From a virus: 64,000 nucleotides of DNA. A program made the translations under genes and the position numbers. The stretch lies in the IMG/VR virus record IMGVR_UViG_3300021185_003040, positions 59,788 through 123,787 of that record. The stretch is one strand, 5' to 3'. The notes beneath the pieces were generated by a model that saw only the letters and a list, made by a program, of their open reading frames with translations, searched no databases and had not been told where the DNA came from. Of the stretch, positions 44,144-64,000 are shown in pieces; the first letter of the stretch is position 1, and every line of letters begins with the position of its first letter.

Positions 44144-44413
44144 TTATCTAATTTTTTTATCGTTCTTTTTAATAGTGTAAGATTTATAACTCTTTAAATA
44201 ATTCACAGAGTCTACCCAATCAGCCAACACCTCTTGAATAAACTTTATAAAATCATTCATTTGGTTATTTCTCCATATATGACCAGATATAGAATTCTTT
44301 AAAATGTTTTTTCTATAATCATTTCCAAGATTTTTTCTATCGTCAAATACACTTTCCCTAATAGAGTATAGCCTTTCTCTTCTGCTTTTAAAAAGATTTT
44401 TAAAAATACTCAT
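44144..44413 (-). CDS. Small hypothetical protein in the baseplate block, 89 aa
   Basis: I do not recognise it. It is highly basic and helical: FKNLFKSRRERLYSIRESVF at the N-terminus, then a helix with Trp and Phe residues, and a Lys-rich C-terminal end. The start overlaps the gp6 stop by one base (TAATG), showing close coupling, and the gp7-like gene follows after 2 bases. It might be a small wedge part or an assembly factor acting between gp6 and gp7. That is inferred from position only. Confidence 0.6.
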   Translation of the reverse strand: MSIFKNLFKSRRERLYSIRESVFDDRKNLGNDYRKNILKNSISGHIWRNNQMNDFIKFIQEVLADWVDSVNYLKSYKSYTIKKNDKKIR

Positions 44414-46233
44414 TATATAGCTTTTCTATTTTTAGCTTGAACTTTAGCAAATATGCTATTTTTCACAGCTGGTTCATCAAAGTAAATTGAAAGAGCTGCT
44501 TTTTCCCCAGTCTTTACTGAATCATCCACCATGTTTCCATTTTGATCTAACCATCCACCTCTAAACAATGCAACTTCTTCTTTTTCTAAAATTATATCTC
44601 CAAAAGAATCTAAATTAATTACATTCTCCGGAAGAGCAGCGCCTTCTTCAAAATTAACCTGTGAGGTAGTTACGTTTCTTTTAAAGAAAACCATTTTTTG
44701 TTTTCCGTTACCTATATCCTCTAATAGTGGAGTAGAAGGCGTTACGGTTACTGTTTTAGAAATATAATATCCTAATCTTCTAGCTGTTTCTTCTTTTTCA
44801 GAAGTGAATTTAACGTTAACGGAATCAATACCTTCAATACCTTCAATAATTGCTACTATATCTGATTTTGGAAGACGATCTCTTCTTGTAATATTAATTA
44901 AGTATTCAGCGACCTTAGATCTAATTTCAGATGATAGGTTATTTTTATGATATCCTTCAAAATATCTAACCTTAATATCCATTCTAAAGTATTGCGGTAA
45001 AGGATCTACTATTTTAACTTCAGTCGTTACCATCTGTCTTCCTGATTTTTCTAATAATCCCATAATTCCTTCTTTTTCTATTTCAGTAAAAAAGAATTCA
45101 GAAGTATCTAAGCTAAAATAATCTTTATTGTTTTGTAATTTTTTAAGAGTATTAGGCAACATGAATAGATAGATAACATTATCATCGTCTAAATATCCAT
45201 CGTCTGTAGTATTATATGCATCTAAATATGAAAACAAGCCGTATCTTGAAAGAAAGTGCTCATAGTTATCTGGGGTTGCTAGTACAAATGAATGTGACTG
45301 TAATGGGGCAATTAATTTTGTTAATGCAATATCTTCTGGATTTGCTCCCATTTTAGGAGCGACTGTAAACGAAAATTCTAATAATTCGTTTAAGTCATGT
45401 GTGTTTCCTAAAGAATCTGTTCCTTCAGTTTCAAACTTAAATGTCAAATCAGCTCTACCGTTTAAATTACCCATAGCACCGGAAATCTTTAAATATTCTA
45501 CTTTAATCGAAGCTCCCTTTTCAGGTATTTCTCCAAATGAACCATTACCAAAATAAAGATCTAATCCACCTGTTATACCTGTTTTCACAATGTAACCCTG
45601 TGTTCCTTTCTTCATATCATACAGTGAATCATATTTTGACCACAAATTAGAATTAACAGTTACTCTAATTTGATCATGATCAACCATTCCTTTTGTTATT
45701 ACGTTAAATGACTGAAATGACTCCCCTGTTGAAGTTAATGTTTGATCTTCATATTCTCCTTGAACTACGGGAACATATATGAAATTAGAATTAGATTTGT
45801 CTAATCTAAATTGATCATTATTGGTTCTTAAAGTATACACTAGACCATTATCATTTGATTTTATAATAGCATTAGCGGGAATGTTTAAAGCATCTCCTGC
45901 AATATCATCTAATCCCTGTACACCTAATCTCAGCTTTAATTCACCAGAAGCGGCAGCTCCTCTAAATGAATCATGTCCTGCTAATCTTGAAAGGCCATAA
46001 ATTGATTCTGGGTTTTGAGCTGTTAGTATATTTTGCTCAACCGTTGAGTCTTCTATATAGAAGAAGATTAATTTTCCTATTTCTGAAATAACATCTAGTA
46101 ATTGTGAAAAAGGAGAAGCGGTTGTAAATGCAGTTCCTACTGCACCATATACCCTGCTAACATACGATCTCACATCTGAGATCATTTCTCCAGTTTTAAT
46201 TCTAGACGTTGATAAAAAGTTATTATCTGCCAT
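44413..46233 (-). CDS. 6: Baseplate wedge subunit gp6 (baseplate J-like)
   Basis: The 606-residue protein has the baseplate J/gp6 pattern: an N-terminal helical region (MISDVRSYVSRV), then LNIPANAIIKSNDNGLVYTL, LDLYFGNGSFGEIPEKG and the IKVEYLKISGAMGNLNG segment (225-259), which is the core J-type signature. T4 gp6 is 660 residues. gp6 forms a dimer that joins wedges into the inner ring and triggers sheath contraction. It follows gp25 by 17 bases, as in many contractile phages, and is linked to the next gene by TAATG. The call is well supported by motif and neighbourhood. Confidence 0.85.
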   Translation of the reverse strand: MADNNFLSTSRIKTGEMISDVRSYVSRVYGAVGTAFTTASPFSQLLDVISEIGKLIFFYIEDSTVEQNILTAQNPESIYGLSRLAGHDSFRGAAASGELKLRLGVQGLDDIAGDALNIPANAIIKSNDNGLVYTLRTNNDQFRLDKSNSNFIYVPVVQGEYEDQTLTSTGESFQSFNVITKGMVDHDQIRVTVNSNLWSKYDSLYDMKKGTQGYIVKTGITGGLDLYFGNGSFGEIPEKGASIKVEYLKISGAMGNLNGRADLTFKFETEGTDSLGNTHDLNELLEFSFTVAPKMGANPEDIALTKLIAPLQSHSFVLATPDNYEHFLSRYGLFSYLDAYNTTDDGYLDDDNVIYLFMLPNTLKKLQNNKDYFSLDTSEFFFTEIEKEGIMGLLEKSGRQMVTTEVKIVDPLPQYFRMDIKVRYFEGYHKNNLSSEIRSKVAEYLINITRRDRLPKSDIVAIIEGIEGIDSVNVKFTSEKEETARRLGYYISKTVTVTPSTPLLEDIGNGKQKMVFFKRNVTTSQVNFEEGAALPENVINLDSFGDIILEKEEVALFRGGWLDQNGNMVDDSVKTGEKAALSIYFDEPAVKNSIFAKVQAKNRKAI

Positions 46234-46250: not shown

Positions 46251-46604
46251 TTATACATAGACACCTACTTGATATTTGTTGTCTACTCTTATATCTATAA
46301 AGACTGCATGTCTGTCGACTTCTTTAGTAAAGTCAACGTCTACAGTCACGTTAAATTTTTGCGCAAGTGGACAGAATTGAAAAATCTGTTCTGCTACCAC
46401 TTTTTTTAATAAATAGTCATTATAACTTAATGAATATACATAGTCTTCTAAATTAGCACCAAATTCTGGATTACCTAGAACATCACCCTTTCTTGTAAAA
46501 AGAACTGTTTCAATCTGCGTTAACAGTCTTGAAAGTTCTGAATAGTTTTCCATCTCAGTTGGATCGAAACCAGGATCTCCTTGCGCTTTTATATAAAACT
46601 CCAT
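46251..46604 (-). CDS. 25: Baseplate wedge subunit gp25
   Basis: The 117-residue protein matches gp25: TQIETVLFTRKGDVLGNPEFGANLEDYVY (residues about 30-58) is the conserved signature, with the Pro-x-Phe-Gly core, and a C-terminal VTVDVDF strand. gp25 holds the sheath start to the wedge; despite a lysozyme-like name it is structural. T4 gp25 is 132 residues. It is followed by gp6, the usual order. A variant promoter-like element (GAATATATA) lies 6 bases before the start. Confidence 0.85.
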   Translation of the reverse strand: MEFYIKAQGDPGFDPTEMENYSELSRLLTQIETVLFTRKGDVLGNPEFGANLEDYVYSLSYNDYLLKKVVAEQIFQFCPLAQKFNVTVDVDFTKEVDRHAVFIDIRVDNKYQVGVYV

Positions 46605-46620: not shown

Positions 46621-47454
46621 TTAAGAATGCATCATCCAATCGGTGCCTTCATCTGATTTAATTTCTTCAATAACAGCTTCTAATTCTCCTTCTCCTAATC
46701 CCTGTATTGCATCTGCATTTACCTCTATATTTCCTGGCAATGCAAATCCAAAGATACTTAACTTTTGGCCAAGTGATATTTTAATCTTTGCAGCGCAATA
46801 TCTAAAGAATGCTTCATCTTCAAATAATGCACACTCTGGAATTGTTTCATATACTTCTAATATAATATCTCTATTAGGGGTTTCTCCAGTAAATTTAATC
46901 TCATGTGTTAGTTGGTTATAGTGATAGCCAATGGGGTTTTCTAGAATTTGTCTAGCCATATCAAAGAAACTTTCATTAACCACGTAATATTGAAGGTTCT
47001 CTGCTGCATCTACTACACCATCTCCACCGAACATTCCAGTATACATCATTCTTTCGATAGCAAAATCACCTTGTGAAAATCTAATATCTGTTCCACCCGC
47101 ATACTTTGATCCGGTTTCAAAACATCCATATACTGAATAAACTTCTCCACCACCTGTAACTGGATCCATCTTTGGAAGAGTAAAGCATCTTCTAGATTTA
47201 AAAAGATTAGACTCAAAAAGTTCTTTAGGCAAAACCATAAAGTTTTCTTTCATTGAATACTCGTAATTTTTATAGAACCATTTCTTTGCTCTCTTGACAA
47301 TATTCTCTACTTCTGATTTTGGAAGATTCATAGGAATCATACAAGACCCTGTTACCTCTGATGCCAACTCATTTACAAAGTTGTTAAAGCATACATTATC
47401 ATCCCAAGTAGGCTTATTTAAATGGCTATTATTACCTATTATATTATCACTCAT
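46621..47454 (-). CDS. Unrecognised virion protein (neck- or head-associated?), 277 aa
   Basis: I do not recognise it. The protein has an N-terminal helical region (SEVENIVKRAKKWFYKNYEYS), a middle with Gly-rich loops (MDPVTGGGEVYSVYG, MFGGDGVVDA), and a helical C-terminal end (FFRYCAAKIKISLGQKLSIFGF, then an acidic helix). It is well within the structural block, 16 bases before gp25 and following the amidoligase gene. A neck, connector or baseplate assembly role is possible, but nothing visible selects one. Leader A-rich without Shine-Dalgarno. Confidence 0.55.
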   Translation of the reverse strand: MSDNIIGNNSHLNKPTWDDNVCFNNFVNELASEVTGSCMIPMNLPKSEVENIVKRAKKWFYKNYEYSMKENFMVLPKELFESNLFKSRRCFTLPKMDPVTGGGEVYSVYGCFETGSKYAGGTDIRFSQGDFAIERMMYTGMFGGDGVVDAAENLQYYVVNESFFDMARQILENPIGYHYNQLTHEIKFTGETPNRDIILEVYETIPECALFEDEAFFRYCAAKIKISLGQKLSIFGFALPGNIEVNADAIQGLGEGELEAVIEEIKSDEGTDWMMHS

Positions 47455-47470
47455 TTTATTTTAGTTATTT

Positions 47471-48766
47471 TTAAACTTCCGTATAAAGTATTTTTTCAGT
47501 GTTGTCAAACTTTGCAGTTCTTTTATCGTATTTACCGTCTCTAAATATACCTCCTTGCATCGTCCCTTTCATTATTCCATTTCCGTATACGTAACAATCT
47601 TTTAAAACACAAGACTGATGAACGTATGAACTTTCTAATTTAGATGAATTAATCTGTGTAGATTGATAAAAGTTACAAGTGTGAATATCAGATCCATTTA
47701 TGTCACAGCTAAAGAAATCACAATTTGTAAATTCTCCTCTTAAAGAACATCTTACAAATTCATATCCTTCTAATTCTACGCAATATGATAAGTTACCATG
47801 ATCTACTTGAATTGTCCCGTTATCTGCATCATAGTTAATATGTCCCTTTGTTAATTCACCATGTGTAAATAACCTAAGAACTCTTTCTCTAATATTAGGC
47901 CAGTGTAAATCTATTATTTTTTCATTGTCATTTAAATCAACCGTTAATTTAACATCTTGATTCCAACCTACATTAATAGTTTTCCAATCTTTTCTAGCCT
48001 TTATAATTCTTTCATTTTTTGCAAGAATTTTTCTAAGCTCTATTGAATTAAGATTGTCAAATTGAACACCACTAGTACTATTCCATAATTGAGTTATAAA
48101 AAGATCTAGCATTTGTAGAATCTTAGAAGTTTTCTTTTCCCAATCTGCTCCACCTAAGTATCTAAATTCTAAATAATTTTTATGTCTTTTTTCAAAGTTA
48201 ATTCCATAATATTTAGAATCGGGATATATGAAATTACTAGGAGTAATATTTAATCCATCATAGAAATAAGTATCTGACTTAGGTAAAACGAATTTAATTG
48301 ACTTTGCGTATGCAGAATCTTTTCTTTCTGGGAAAAACTTAAAAACTTGGCTTTCTTTAAAATCTAAAATAAATTTAAGAACATTCATTTTAGATATTCT
48401 GTGCTTATTCTCTATTTTATCAGTATCGAAAGAAAGGTTTAAGTGAATAGAACTTCTATCATTAGTATACCCATTTTCTTCTATCCATTTACATACTTTA
48501 ATAATCATCATTCTTGCAGCATAATACGGCTGTGCTCCCGTTACAAGTTCCATTAGTTTTTCACCACCTGACATATCAGGTTCAATTTTAAACTCATCCC
48601 TTGTAACTTCAAAGTCACTATGTGCCTTTGCCTCTACTCTAATTTTTTTACCTAAAAGACCTGCTAATTCCTTAGCAGTCGTATCGATATCCTTATTAGA
48701 ATAAAATTCAAATTCAACACCTACTAGTGCGTTCTTTAATATGTCTGAATTATTAATATTATTCAT
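47471..48766 (-). CDS. Amidoligase-like enzyme fused to pentapeptide-like repeats, 431 aa
   Basis: Residues 15-24 (VGVEFEFYSN), 60-76 (KIEPDMSGGEKLMELVT), 105-112 (SSIHLNLS) and about 198-207 (NYLEFRYLGG) follow the order of the glutamine-synthetase-fold amidoligases (COOH-NH2 ligases), which use ATP to form amide bonds to peptides or proteins. Likely metal and substrate ligands are Glu18, Glu20, Glu62 and His108. The C-terminal part (about 325-410) has pentapeptide-like units such as FVRCSLRGEF, TNCDFFSCDI, HTCNFYQSTQ and CVLKDCYVYG that should form a right-handed beta helix, as in DNA mimics. It has its own promoter-like element, and lies among structural genes. The target is unknown; the fusion is unusual. 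Confidence 0.68.
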   Translation of the reverse strand: MNNINNSDILKNALVGVEFEFYSNKDIDTTAKELAGLLGKKIRVEAKAHSDFEVTRDEFKIEPDMSGGEKLMELVTGAQPYYAARMMIIKVCKWIEENGYTNDRSSIHLNLSFDTDKIENKHRISKMNVLKFILDFKESQVFKFFPERKDSAYAKSIKFVLPKSDTYFYDGLNITPSNFIYPDSKYYGINFEKRHKNYLEFRYLGGADWEKKTSKILQMLDLFITQLWNSTSGVQFDNLNSIELRKILAKNERIIKARKDWKTINVGWNQDVKLTVDLNDNEKIIDLHWPNIRERVLRLFTHGELTKGHINYDADNGTIQVDHGNLSYCVELEGYEFVRCSLRGEFTNCDFFSCDINGSDIHTCNFYQSTQINSSKLESSYVHQSCVLKDCYVYGNGIMKGTMQGGIFRDGKYDKRTAKFDNTEKILYTEV

Positions 48767-48794
48767 TTACGTAATTATATAACTTAAGTTGGTT

Positions 48795-48802
48795 TATATA
48801 TC
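48795..48802 (-). promoter_or_regulatory. Candidate late promoter element GATATATA
   Basis: Minus-strand AGATATATAA lies 29 bases before the amidoligase gene start and just after the S1 gene terminator, exactly where a new transcription unit should begin. Confidence 0.6.
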
Positions 48803-48824: not shown

Positions 48825-48850
48825 GAAAAAGCCCGAGTGATCGGGCTCTT
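48825..48850 (-). terminator. Rho-independent terminator after the S1-like gene
   Basis: A GC-rich stem (GCCCGA at 48831-48836 with TCGGGC at 48841-48846), with a 4-base loop, is followed on the minus strand by a T-run (48826-48830). It stands 21 bases after the S1 stop and ends that unit. Confidence 0.88.
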
Positions 48851-48871: not shown

Positions 48872-50197
48872 TTATAGTTTAAGGAATACTTTTCTAGTGT
48901 CTTCTTCAACTCTGATCACTTGGACAGTAATATCTGCACCTTTCGATATGTCTTTAATATCTATGTTTTCAGGGAATTCAGATACATGTAAGAGTCCTAC
49001 AACACCTTCTTCTATTTCTACAAATAAACCATAGTCTTTAGTAGATTTTACCTTTCCTACTACTTCAGTTTTCTTAGTATATCTTGAAGAAATACCTTCC
49101 CATGGATCTACTTTCTTTTCAGCAGGAGAACCTTGAACAAGTGTAATTTTTCTTTCATTAATAACTTCCTTAACATAGAATTTAATTTCTGTTCCTGGCT
49201 CTAAAGATCTGTCTCTATGTGCCTTTGAAGTTTCAGTATCTAAGTCGTTAACGTGAATCATACCTGTTAAACATCCTTCAAACTCAACGAATACACCGTA
49301 TTTTGCAGAACCGGTAACATGACCTGTTCTTTCAACTGTAATATCCTCTTGTATTGTTTTAAGTGTATTAGGAATAAGTGCTCTTAAATATGCTCTATGT
49401 GAAACTACAACAGTTCCTTTTTCTTCTGAATAACTCACAGGTACTACATACATTTCTGTGCCGATGATTGATTCAAAGTCATGTAATTTATTTACACCTG
49501 CTAAAGAACCTGGCATAAAGCAATCAATTCCTTGAACCTGAACAATATATCCTCCACCTGGAATCATTTTAGAAACAATACCGCTGTATGCTGTATTCCC
49601 ATCATCAATAGATGCTACGATTTCTTTAATAACTTTAGTCTTAAGACCTTCAGTTACAGAACCTATCATATATTTCTTGACATTCATTGAAGTATCGGCA
49701 GTCAATTGAACATCAACTTCAGCTCCTTCTTTTAAAAGTTCTTTTACTTCTGCAGTTTCTCTTGACAAATCTACATAGATTAATTCTCTATACCCTACGT
49801 CAATTGACGCCCATTCAGAATCAACGCCATACACCTTTCCAGTGTAACTAGCGCCTAATTGTAAAGAATATAAAGTGTTAGAAGTTAATGAATGACCTTC
49901 CATTAGATCAAATAACTCTTGAGCATACGGCTCTCTACTATATACCTTTACTCCTTTAGGTACTTTAATATGTGGATTTGGTTTTCTAAACTTAGTGGGG
50001 CAATCCGCCTGATAAAGATCCCACATGAATTCTCCATTTTCATCTAGAAAATCAGTGTCAGGTCCTGGCGTTAATTTTTCTGGGGTTGCTTTGTTTAGAG
50101 AAGTTTCTACTTTAACTTCTGTTTCTTGATTAGCTTCTTTAAGCTGTGTAGTTGTTGAGAGTCTTGGTCTCTTTTGTTTAGTTGTCTTTGTTGACAT
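48872..50197 (-). CDS. Ribosomal protein S1-like protein with four S1 domains, 441 aa
   Basis: Four S1-type OB-fold repeats are visible: about 115-183 (LGASYTGKVYGV, WASIDVGYRELI), 203-270 (AYSGIVSKMIPGGGYIVQVQG), 289-354 (ERTGHVTGSAKYGVFVEFEG, GMIHVNDL) and 377-441 (EVVGKVKSTKDYGLFVEIEEG, GLLHVSEF). The last two are the most canonical, with GxFVE and GLxHVSE words. Bacterial S1 binds mRNA on the small ribosomal subunit and unwinds the start region; it has six repeats. The basic, Thr/Lys-rich N-terminus (1-50) has no match. In a phage this could direct ribosomes to leaders without Shine-Dalgarno sequences, which fits this genome. It has its own promoter-like element and terminator. Confidence 0.85.
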   Translation of the reverse strand: MSTKTTKQKRPRLSTTTQLKEANQETEVKVETSLNKATPEKLTPGPDTDFLDENGEFMWDLYQADCPTKFRKPNPHIKVPKGVKVYSREPYAQELFDLMEGHSLTSNTLYSLQLGASYTGKVYGVDSEWASIDVGYRELIYVDLSRETAEVKELLKEGAEVDVQLTADTSMNVKKYMIGSVTEGLKTKVIKEIVASIDDGNTAYSGIVSKMIPGGGYIVQVQGIDCFMPGSLAGVNKLHDFESIIGTEMYVVPVSYSEEKGTVVVSHRAYLRALIPNTLKTIQEDITVERTGHVTGSAKYGVFVEFEGCLTGMIHVNDLDTETSKAHRDRSLEPGTEIKFYVKEVINERKITLVQGSPAEKKVDPWEGISSRYTKKTEVVGKVKSTKDYGLFVEIEEGVVGLLHVSEFPENIDIKDISKGADITVQVIRVEEDTRKVFLKL

Positions 50198-59408: not shown

Positions 59409-59926
59409 ATTTTATAATAATTAGTTACAAATTCAGTTATTTGTTCGTTTAAAAATTCTTGTAGGTTATTTATCTCTATTTGAGAAACAGCTGATTTAGA
59501 GATCTCTTCTAAGATTTGTTCCTTTTCTTCTTCAGAGTTTTCAACTAACATGTTAAATATTTCTTTCTTAGGAAGATTAATTCCTACACTTAATTGAAAT
59601 GATTCAACGTTCTTAGCAGATAAAGTTTTAATTAATTGACCGAGTGGAGAATTAGTTTCTTTAACTTCTACTTTCTTTTCAATTTCTTTAATAGGAGCTT
59701 CCTTCGCTTTAGGTTTATTATTTCCAATAAGATCAACTCCAGGAAAAGGTAATCCCTCGGCGGTTACTAGTTCTAAAAACTCAGGTAATACTTTGTTGAA
59801 TATTTTAGATCCATCTTTAAAGTAAGTAAATTCAGAATCTTTAGATTCTACCTCAACCACTTTACCAAAATTATCTCCCTTTTTCCACTGATATTTTACA
59901 ATATCTTTTTCTTCAGTTGTTTGCAT
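59405..59926 (-). CDS. Unrecognised protein, 173 aa
   Basis: I do not recognise it. The N-terminal 60 residues form a small beta domain (KGDNFGKVVEVESKDSEFTYFKDG), followed by a Lys/Glu-rich linker (KEAPIKEIEKKVEVKE) and a helical C-terminal half (SPLGQLIKTLSAKNVESF, EFLNEQITEFVTNYY). The layout of a folded part, charged linker and helical part suggests an adaptor. It heads a chain of overlapping small genes; the gap upstream is 33 bases. Confidence 0.55.
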   Translation of the reverse strand: MQTTEEKDIVKYQWKKGDNFGKVVEVESKDSEFTYFKDGSKIFNKVLPEFLELVTAEGLPFPGVDLIGNNKPKAKEAPIKEIEKKVEVKETNSPLGQLIKTLSAKNVESFQLSVGINLPKKEIFNMLVENSEEEKEQILEEISKSAVSQIEINNLQEFLNEQITEFVTNYYKI

Positions 59927-59959: not shown

Positions 59960-60175
59960 TTAGAAAAGTTTAAGCTGTGGTATAATATAGAAGGTATTAG
60001 ATTCTCCTTCTTGATAGAACTTTATAAAGTCGTTTATAAAGGCATGGGATGTAGATGGTCCTATCATTGCCTCTGTCTTTTTAATATACCTTCTAAAAAA
60101 CTCATGGCTTCCATGTTCTTTTAAATAGTCTTCTAGGCGGTTTACTTCTGGTAAGTTTATTCTATTAATGCTCAT
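59960..60175 (-). CDS. Small hypothetical protein, 71 aa
   Basis: I do not recognise it. It is short, mixed in charge, with a central helix (HEFFRRYIKKTEAMIG) and an aromatic end (FYIIPQLKLF). The start overlaps the dCMP deaminase stop by 11 bases, so it is probably translated from the same message. A link to nucleotide metabolism is possible from position but not visible in sequence. Confidence 0.5.
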   Translation of the reverse strand: MSINRINLPEVNRLEDYLKEHGSHEFFRRYIKKTEAMIGPSTSHAFINDFIKFYQEGESNTFYIIPQLKLF

Positions 60176-60671
60176 TCCATACGATTACTTGTTCAACAAT
60201 AATTCCTGCCTTTTTTAATAAAGAAATACCTGACAGATCTCTATATCCTTCACAGTAGAATACTTTTTCTACACCAGCTTGTATAATTAACTTAGCGCAT
60301 TCAAAGCATGGAGAAGTAGTAGTATATAGGATCGATCCTTTCGAAGTAAGTGTAGATTTTGAAATCTTCATTAGTGCATTTGATTCTGCATGTAAGACTT
60401 CTTGTTTAGTAACTTGTTTAGAACAACAAGTATCTTCACATTCATATCCTTTTTCTATTAGAATTTCTTTGTGGTCAGGATTATCTATATTTCTAGTTTG
60501 AGTTTCTTCACATTGATTATCAAAACCATGTGGAGTTCCATTATATCCAAATGAAACAATCTGCTCGTCTTTAACTACTATACAACCGACCTTTCTTCTC
60601 TCAGCATAACTGAGTTTAGAAATTTGATATGCTATTTGCATGTATATTACGTCTACTGAAATTCTTGGCAT
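60165..60671 (-). CDS. cd: Deoxycytidylate (dCMP) deaminase
   Basis: The 168-residue protein has the cytidine deaminase-type zinc site: LHAES (His94, Glu96) and SPCFEC (Cys122, Cys125). Other family words are VGCIVVKDEQIVSFGYNGTP and ILYTTTSPC. The enzyme turns dCMP into dUMP, the substrate for thymidylate synthesis, raising the dTTP pool for AT-rich DNA. T4 has the same activity (gene cd, 193 aa). An insertion around residues 52-84 with Cys54, Cys78, Cys82 and Cys83 could add a structural zinc, as in T4. It follows the terminator of the acidic protein gene. Confidence 0.92.
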   Translation of the reverse strand: MPRISVDVIYMQIAYQISKLSYAERRKVGCIVVKDEQIVSFGYNGTPHGFDNQCEETQTRNIDNPDHKEILIEKGYECEDTCCSKQVTKQEVLHAESNALMKISKSTLTSKGSILYTTTSPCFECAKLIIQAGVEKVFYCEGYRDLSGISLLKKAGIIVEQVIVWNEH

Positions 60672-63064: not shown

Positions 63065-63072
63065 TATATATC
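63065..63072 (-). promoter_or_regulatory. Candidate late promoter element GATATATA
   Basis: Minus-strand AGATATATAA touches the stop codon of the UV endonuclease gene and lies 5 bases before the start of the 179-aa tagged gene. Confidence 0.4.
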
Positions 63073-64000
63073 TATGATAGAACGAGCTCCTTTAAAAACT
63101 CCTGCTTGTATCGCTGTAGGGCAAGTTCTTTCGCCTTTGCTTCGAGTTCGATATCTAGATCCATACCATACGTTTCAATGTGATCATATACATAATCAGC
63201 ATGTGCACGTTTATTGCCTTGTGTAGCATCTTCGTGTATTTGTTTACATGAAGAATAGTGGCATAGTTGGCGAATTCCTTTAGGCCATGATTTAGCTGCA
63301 AGTTCTAGAGCTTCTTTTTCTGGCATTGAATCTTCGTAGCACCAGTGATGATGATAGTCAAATGTTATTGGAGTTTTACCCGTTAATAGATGTATGTCAT
63401 ATAAATCCTGTACCGAATACTGTGCTGTTTTGTCATCGTTTTCGATAACTAGACGATTCGCTGCGCCTGGAGTAAGTCGCTTGAAATTTTCAGCAAATCT
63501 TTTCTTAGTAGCTTCTTTATCGTCGTAGGTTCCGCCGATGTGAATATTGATAGCAGCATAAGGAGTTTGTGGTAAATCTAGCATATCCATTATTTCGCCG
63601 TGTTGACGTAAATCTTTAAGGGCTTTGATAACTACCTTTTCATTCGGAGAAGCAAGAACATTGAAAGGACCTGGATGGAATGTCAATCTTTGGCCATATT
63701 GTTTAGCAAGTTTACCTGCACCTTTCATTAGATTACACACTTTGTCATAATCAGGAAGTTCAGATAATTCGTATTCCGACATCCATGGAAATAGATTACT
63801 TGACATACGATACATTGTTATGTCGTTCTTGTAATTCCACTTGATAATTTCTATCATGTCCTTGATATTTAACACTGCAAGTTCTGATGCGTATTTAATA
63901 CCCTTTTCCATGAAGGTTCTTTTAATCATTTTTCTACCAACATATATGTTCGATTCTTTTTTAAGAGTCATGTTGATACAACAATATCCGTAGTCTGCTG
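63072..64000 (-). CDS. uvsE: UV damage endonuclease, UvdE family (5' end cut by window edge)
   Basis: The protein matches UvdE, a TIM-barrel metal-dependent endonuclease that nicks DNA 5' of UV photoproducts and other lesions. Motifs are YRMSSNLFPW, RLTFHPGPFNVLASPNE, NIHIGGTYDDKE, RLVIENDD and TFDYHHHWC, with the metal-binding His, Glu and Asp residues. The ATG at 63969-63971 is not the true start: the frame stays open to the edge and reads GYCCINMTL, the usual first strand of UvdE (GYxCIN). The real start is thus beyond base 64000. It would repair sunlight damage, which suits a phage of surface waters. The gene ends next to a promoter-like element. Confidence 0.9.
   Translation of the reverse strand, partial: ADYGYCCINMTLKKESNIYVGRKMIKRTFMEKGIKYASELAVLNIKDMIEIIKWNYKNDITMYRMSSNLFPWMSEYELSELPDYDKVCNLMKGAGKLAKQYGQRLTFHPGPFNVLASPNEKVVIKALKDLRQHGEIMDMLDLPQTPYAAINIHIGGTYDDKEATKKRFAENFKRLTPGAANRLVIENDDKTAQYSVQDLYDIHLLTGKTPITFDYHHHWCYEDSMPEKEALELAAKSWPKGIRQLCHYSSCKQIHEDATQGNKRAHADYVYDHIETYGMDLDIELEAKAKELALQRYKQEFLKELVLS

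Follow-up and report, generated by a model that had tools for sequence, protein, structure and literature searches.

A predicted amidoligase with a pentapeptide-like beta-helix at the head of phage neck and baseplate genes

The window analysed here is a stretch of 64,000 nucleotides from the IMG/VR virus record IMGVR_UViG_3300021185_003040 (positions 59,788 to 123,787 of that record). An open reading frame at 47471..48766 (-), which starts with ATG, encodes a protein of 431 amino acids that Pfam, the alignment of its relatives and an AlphaFold model identify as a fusion of an amidoligase with a beta-helix. The protein is composed of a glutamine synthetase (GS)-fold amidoligase domain (residues 1-208, 48143..48766 (-)), a helical linker (residues 209-302, 47861..48142 (-)), which according to the model, the alignment and the dN/dS values is the poorest conserved part of the protein, and a pentapeptide-like beta-helix (residues 303-431, 47474..47860 (-)), which was delimited by the model, profiles and the alignment and ends in a conserved glycine-rich cap, G...G....G..R.G.

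An earlier note, made from the sequence alone, had proposed a GS-fold amidoligase, and the searches agree with it well beyond chance. The window protein matches Pfam Amidoligase_2 (PF12224) at 27.1 bits, above the gathering cut-off of 22, and with 27 bits it is a divergent member; the same profile finds 28 of 38 relatives at E<0.01, the best of them at 3.8e-10. The structure prediction that had been recommended was run with AlphaFold2 on the 38-member alignment of relatives and gave a GS-like fold with a mean pLDDT of 90 and a pTM of 0.79. In a Foldseek search of the PDB this model found glutamine synthetases (best E 2.7e-4), a fold similarity that is distant only, since the TM-scores against PDB entries are low (about 0.3), and no glutamine synthetase sequence match was obtained in the PDB searches. 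Among the viral models of BFVD the top match was an uncharacterised full-length relative (TM 0.87, 25% identity), followed by many phage models named "Amidoligase enzyme" (best E 7.8e-12). No specific family was found for the window protein in PHROGs, NCBIfam or PADLOC, and its relatives gave weak or unnamed PHROGs matches only, together with one "amidoligase enzyme" match.

All four motifs quoted in the note, GVEFEF (residues 16-21), EPDMSGGEKLMELVT (62-76), SSIHLNL (105-111) and LEFRYLGG (199-206), occur in the order expected of this family. In the alignment of 38 relatives, which reaches down to about 31% identity, motif 1 (48704..48721 (-)), the predicted first metal-binding strand, has G16, E18 and E20 invariant, and motif 2 (48539..48583 (-)) has E62, D64, S66, G67, G68, E73 and T76 invariant. 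Motif 3 (48434..48454 (-)) lies at the canonical HxH position and reads SSI-H108-L-N110-L, with H108 present in 37 of the 38 members (it is replaced by Q in one, L113) and N110 in all of them. In motif 4 (48149..48172 (-)) E200, R202, Y203, G205 and G206 are invariant, as are, beyond the motif residues, G77, S112, K185-G188 and N190. The ATP and metal site, whose absence the note would have counted against its proposal, is therefore represented, as far as the sequences tell, by motifs that are invariant or nearly so. Pairwise dN/dS, with one out-of-frame comparison (to L034) left out, ranges from 0.013 to 0.12 for the ligase domain and from 0.016 to 0.17 for the beta-helix, values that point to strongly purifying selection on the fusion protein and to a ligase domain no less conserved than the beta-helix. 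An ATP-driven, amide-bond-forming enzyme thus appears to be intact in this protein.

The pentapeptide-like character of the C-terminus, also suggested by the note, is borne out by several lines of evidence, with the reservation that it does not appear to be of the canonical type. The strands of the predicted beta-helix follow each other in steps of about 5 residues (350, 355, 360, 365, 371, 376 in the AlphaFold model), and the family profile matched solved pentapeptide proteins in the PDB (E 2.6e-4). Pfam Pentapeptide_4 matches 5 of the 38 members (best 5.4e-6) and the window protein alone at E 0.82. The 5-residue periodicity is borderline in the window protein (p about 0.06) and reaches p<0.05 in 15 of the 38 members. 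The repeat read from the sequences does not clearly follow the canonical A(D/N)LXX, and the term "pentapeptide-like" fits best. A match of the beta-helix to a Hailong HalA-like protein was rejected, being far below its cut-off.

Downstream of the amidoligase gene, after a gap of 16 nt, is placed a gene encoding a T4 gp13-like neck protein (46621..47454 (-)), identified by Foldseek and by a PHROG head-tail adaptor match. Its own model is modest (pLDDT 61) and its best match to the T4 portal-neck-tail complex has an E of 4.8e-10; the matched T4 chains are probably gp13, judging from chain length and from the gp13/gp14 entries lower among the matches. A homologue is annotated as "neck protein" in Tenacibaculum phage PTm1. 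The named relatives of the neck protein belong to phages of Bacteroidota (Prevotella Lak, Tenacibaculum, Chryseobacterium), which suggests a Bacteroidota host for the phage of the window. This gene is followed by one for a gp25-like baseplate wedge protein (46251..46604 (-); PHROG baseplate wedge E 1.8e-4, Pfam GPW_gp25 E 0.0031, which is below the cut-off) and by one for a gp6-like baseplate wedge subunit (44413..46233 (-); PHROG 219, E 2.3e-33).

Upstream of the amidoligase lies a gene with several S1 domains that resembles ribosomal protein S1 (48872..50197 (-); rpsA models E about 1e-41, below the cut-off), forming a separate transcription unit inside the virion structural block. Elsewhere in the window we observed genes for a UvdE-type UV endonuclease (63072-63971 (-), Pfam E 1.5e-54) and for a protein of the cytidine/deoxycytidylate deaminase family (60165-60671 (-), Pfam E 9.4e-22).

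The order S1-like gene, amidoligase, neck, gp25-like and gp6-like genes is that of the clade of the window. The next gene downstream of the amidoligase is the neck gene in 114 loci and the next upstream is the S1 gene in 108, and in a reverse search each of the 80 loci with the neck gene showed the amidoligase on its upstream side, complete in 77 and truncated by a contig end in 3; since the forward and reverse sets overlap and were drawn from the closest relatives, this test covers the clade and not all phages. In some relatives the amidoligase is separated by one or two additional genes from the terminator or S1 gene, or from the neck gene. In the distant huge phages the gene order is broken, with neck, gp25-like or tail genes at about 0.5-2.6 kb from the amidoligase in L084, L085, L086 and L116-L118 and no structural homologue detected near it in L083 and L119. 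In Lak, PTm1 and MA9V-2, which share the neck protein, neither the family profile nor Pfam Amidoligase_2 found a match (one of these searches lacked a dedicated positive control), so a modification made by this enzyme would not be universal to this neck type.

An intrinsic terminator, AGCCCGA-TCAC-TCGGGCT-TTTT, is located 3' of the S1-domain gene (48825..48847 (-)). Of 58 distinct sequences between the S1 and amidoligase genes, 41 contain a terminator, compared with a mean of 0.3 in shuffles, and its stem varies on both sides between relatives. The gaps that separate the amidoligase, neck, gp25-like and gp6-like genes have a median of 16-17 nt. The conserved terminator upstream and these short gaps downstream indicate that the amidoligase heads a transcription unit with the three structural genes, a more specific position than the setting among baseplate genes described in the note.

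A promoter-like box, GATATATA, was recognised by its conservation and by counts in the window at 48795..48802 (-), 28 nt 5' of the amidoligase ATG. Of 66 distinct upstream sequences, 58 carry the form [GA]ATATATA, in most cases 25-31 nt from the start. In the window GATATATA has 13 copies on the minus strand and none on the plus strand, a bias expected of any gene-linked signal, since all the genes used are on the minus strand. Moreover, 8 of the 13 copies are intergenic and intergenic sequence makes up 4% of the window (binomial p about 6e-9). The box also precedes tail genes and is mostly found 23-41 nt before gene starts; its intergenic sites include 4695, 20169, 26732, 34802, 48802 and 61697 (-). 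For the looser RATATATA the total count on both strands of the window is not above chance, and the signal lies in strand and position. We consider GATATATA promoter-like from its sequence and placement, and the timing of the genes behind it as probably late. The box at the amidoligase is followed by a conserved palindrome, AACTTAAGTT (48781-48802 (-) with the box), a possible operator whose CTTAAG occurs in 37 of the 66 distinct upstream sequences. The full string of box and palindrome has a single copy in the window, at the amidoligase, and only the GATATATA core recurs.

Only six of 50,697 named phage records gave a match, all from uncultured phages of 462, 635, 636, 642 and 735 kb, the last of which was deposited twice. 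Judging by length, the carriers include the four complete phage genomes of record size (634-735 kb) described by Al-Shayeb et al. 2020, in a text where S1-domain proteins are reported and the amidoligase is unmentioned (PMC7162821). At least 544 candidate stretches in IMG/VR encode relatives, and 84,980 bacterial and archaeal genomes yielded two contigs of metagenome-assembled genomes, one of which (L113) shows the phage neck and baseplate gene order. With the family profile, each of the 10 huge-phage records searched shows one copy of the gene, leaving aside a weak fragment in LR756502 and matches to the beta-helix only in LR756501. The fragment (LR756502.1, 208678-208953; E 1.4e-4) contains three in-frame TAA codons and may be a remnant or a chance match.

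We suggest that the protein is a catalytically competent, cytosolic ATP-dependent ligase, made together with the neck and baseplate proteins, which would modify a phage protein or cross-link it during assembly, and we give this reading a probability a little below one half (about 0.45). The enzyme would be expressed with these proteins from a promoter class common to phage genes and would act in the cytoplasm of the infected cell while particles are assembled. With ATP and Mg2+ or Mn2+ it would turn a carboxylate into an activated acyl-phosphate and join this to an amine by an amide or isopeptide bond. The substrate would most likely be a phage structural protein, which would be tagged or cross-linked, and the beta-helix may act in docking or oligomerisation. 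It is the coupling to the neck and baseplate genes that favours a phage protein as substrate during assembly, and the apparent lack of the enzyme in Lak, PTm1 and MA9V-2, which have the same neck family, tempers our confidence in this reading. GS-fold ligases need ATP and no export signal is evident in the window protein, which makes the assembled cell wall an unlikely target from outside. Among the targets that the note had listed, a phage protein is the one that best fits the genomic context, with a host protein as a less likely target.

The product of the enzyme could instead be a small metabolite or a cell-wall precursor with an amide link, made or attached in the cytoplasm, for instance altered peptidoglycan peptides that block superinfection, and the enzyme would merely be co-expressed with structural genes. 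Such a role was proposed for the amidoligases of phiEco32 and Marvin (PMC10580990, PMC11318856), and the family and motifs are common to phiEco32 and other phage amidoligases. This explanation is nevertheless unlikely, as the gene order is tied to a neck gene and not to a metabolic cassette, and seven other phage amidoligases showed no recognisable beta-helix. Moreover no GATase_6 glutaminase (PF13522) was found in 10 records, some of them fragments, with controls positive in 14 of 14 genomes, and a gamma-glutamyl cyclotransferase (PF06094) was present in only 3 of the 10, those of three of the largest phages, far from the amidoligase gene. A modification of the translation apparatus or another host protein, such as the phage S1-like protein or the ribosome, akin to RimK-type glutamylation and in favour of phage translation, finds some support in the rpsA-like S1-domain gene that immediately precedes the amidoligase in 108 loci, and in the S1 proteins that are encoded as well by huge phages outside the synteny group. 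The S1 and amidoligase genes are, however, split by the conserved terminator and are unlinked in the largest phages, which makes this target quite improbable.

The position within the neck and baseplate unit would also suit a protein that travels inside the virion and is released into the new host, whose proteins it would modify at the start of infection, with the beta-helix serving for packaging or docking. We find this very doubtful, because the enzyme and its beta-helix would probably have to unfold in order to pass a T4-like tail. That a catalytically dead ligase has been put to new use in the neck or baseplate, as a structural protein or a chaperone, must also be considered, given that its neighbours are structural genes, that beta-helices are common in virion proteins and that Asn replaces the second His of HxH. 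The remaining residues of the catalytic motifs are, however, invariant or nearly so in 38 divergent members, the ligase domain is conserved at least as much as the beta-helix, and HxN is also found in the amidoligase of phage Atu_ph07, so that a loss of catalysis seems very unlikely.

Returning to a ligase that acts during assembly, a more far-reaching form of the proposal is a beta-helix-guided, ATP-dependent protein ligase for virion maturation, which would install a covalent modification or an isopeptide cross-link in the neck or tail of the largest phages. We put it forward only tentatively and regard it as possible rather than probable. The HK97 cross-links are autocatalytic, unlike the enzyme-installed modification proposed here. 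Should a virion protein prove to be its substrate, the enzyme would be an ATP-dependent ligase devoted to the assembly of phage particles, the role of GS-like amidoligases would be answered for at least one phage group, and very large virions would be seen to be stabilised or finished by covalent means. Even with another substrate, the question can be tested directly thanks to the conserved gene order.

In the literature searched we found no paper on a virion-associated amidoligase or on an amidoligase-pentapeptide fusion. Both the family of the enzyme and its type of beta-helix were known before; we found no description there of their fusion, of its broad conservation among huge phages or of its position leading a neck and baseplate unit. 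The fusion may also be present elsewhere, our comparison having covered seven other phage amidoligases.

These seven, compared for motifs, show the same order as the window protein, GxExE, an acidic strand with E, HxH or HxN, and ExR; the order that the window protein has in common with Amidoligase_2 is GxExE / DxS..E..S,T / HxH,N / ExR. Phage-borne GS-like amidoligases with such motifs include those of phiEco32, mycobacteriophage Marvin and Salinivibrio phage CW02, and classical phage amidoligases have been discussed in connection with a glutaminase and with roles in the cell wall or in secondary metabolites (PMC10580990, PMC11318856). In phiEco32 the amidoligase gene adjoins a glutamine amidotransferase gene, with an ATP-grasp and a YtfP/UPF0131 gene nearby. 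The window protein differs from typical Amidoligase_2 proteins in the Asn at the second His of HxH (phiEco32, CW02 and Salgado have HxH), in the C-terminal beta-helix and in its place in a neck and baseplate unit with no GATase_6 partner found. It has the GS fold in common with glutamine synthetase, and with pentapeptide-repeat proteins (AlbG/McbG-like, Qnr, MfpA) it shares a beta-helix with a 5-residue step. Unlike in these proteins, the helix shows no clear canonical repeat and is fused to an enzyme, and gyrase targeting is not indicated. The amidoligase of the jumbo Agrobacterium phage Atu_ph07 (AUZ94978.1) has a long insert between motifs 1 and 2 and no recognised C-terminal beta-helix, and by tblastn it is similar only to a 178-aa stretch in one huge phage. 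Nevertheless it carries HxN like the window protein, and its gene is located about 2.7 kb from the portal gene of a phage whose virion proteome is given as 131 proteins (PMC6102473).
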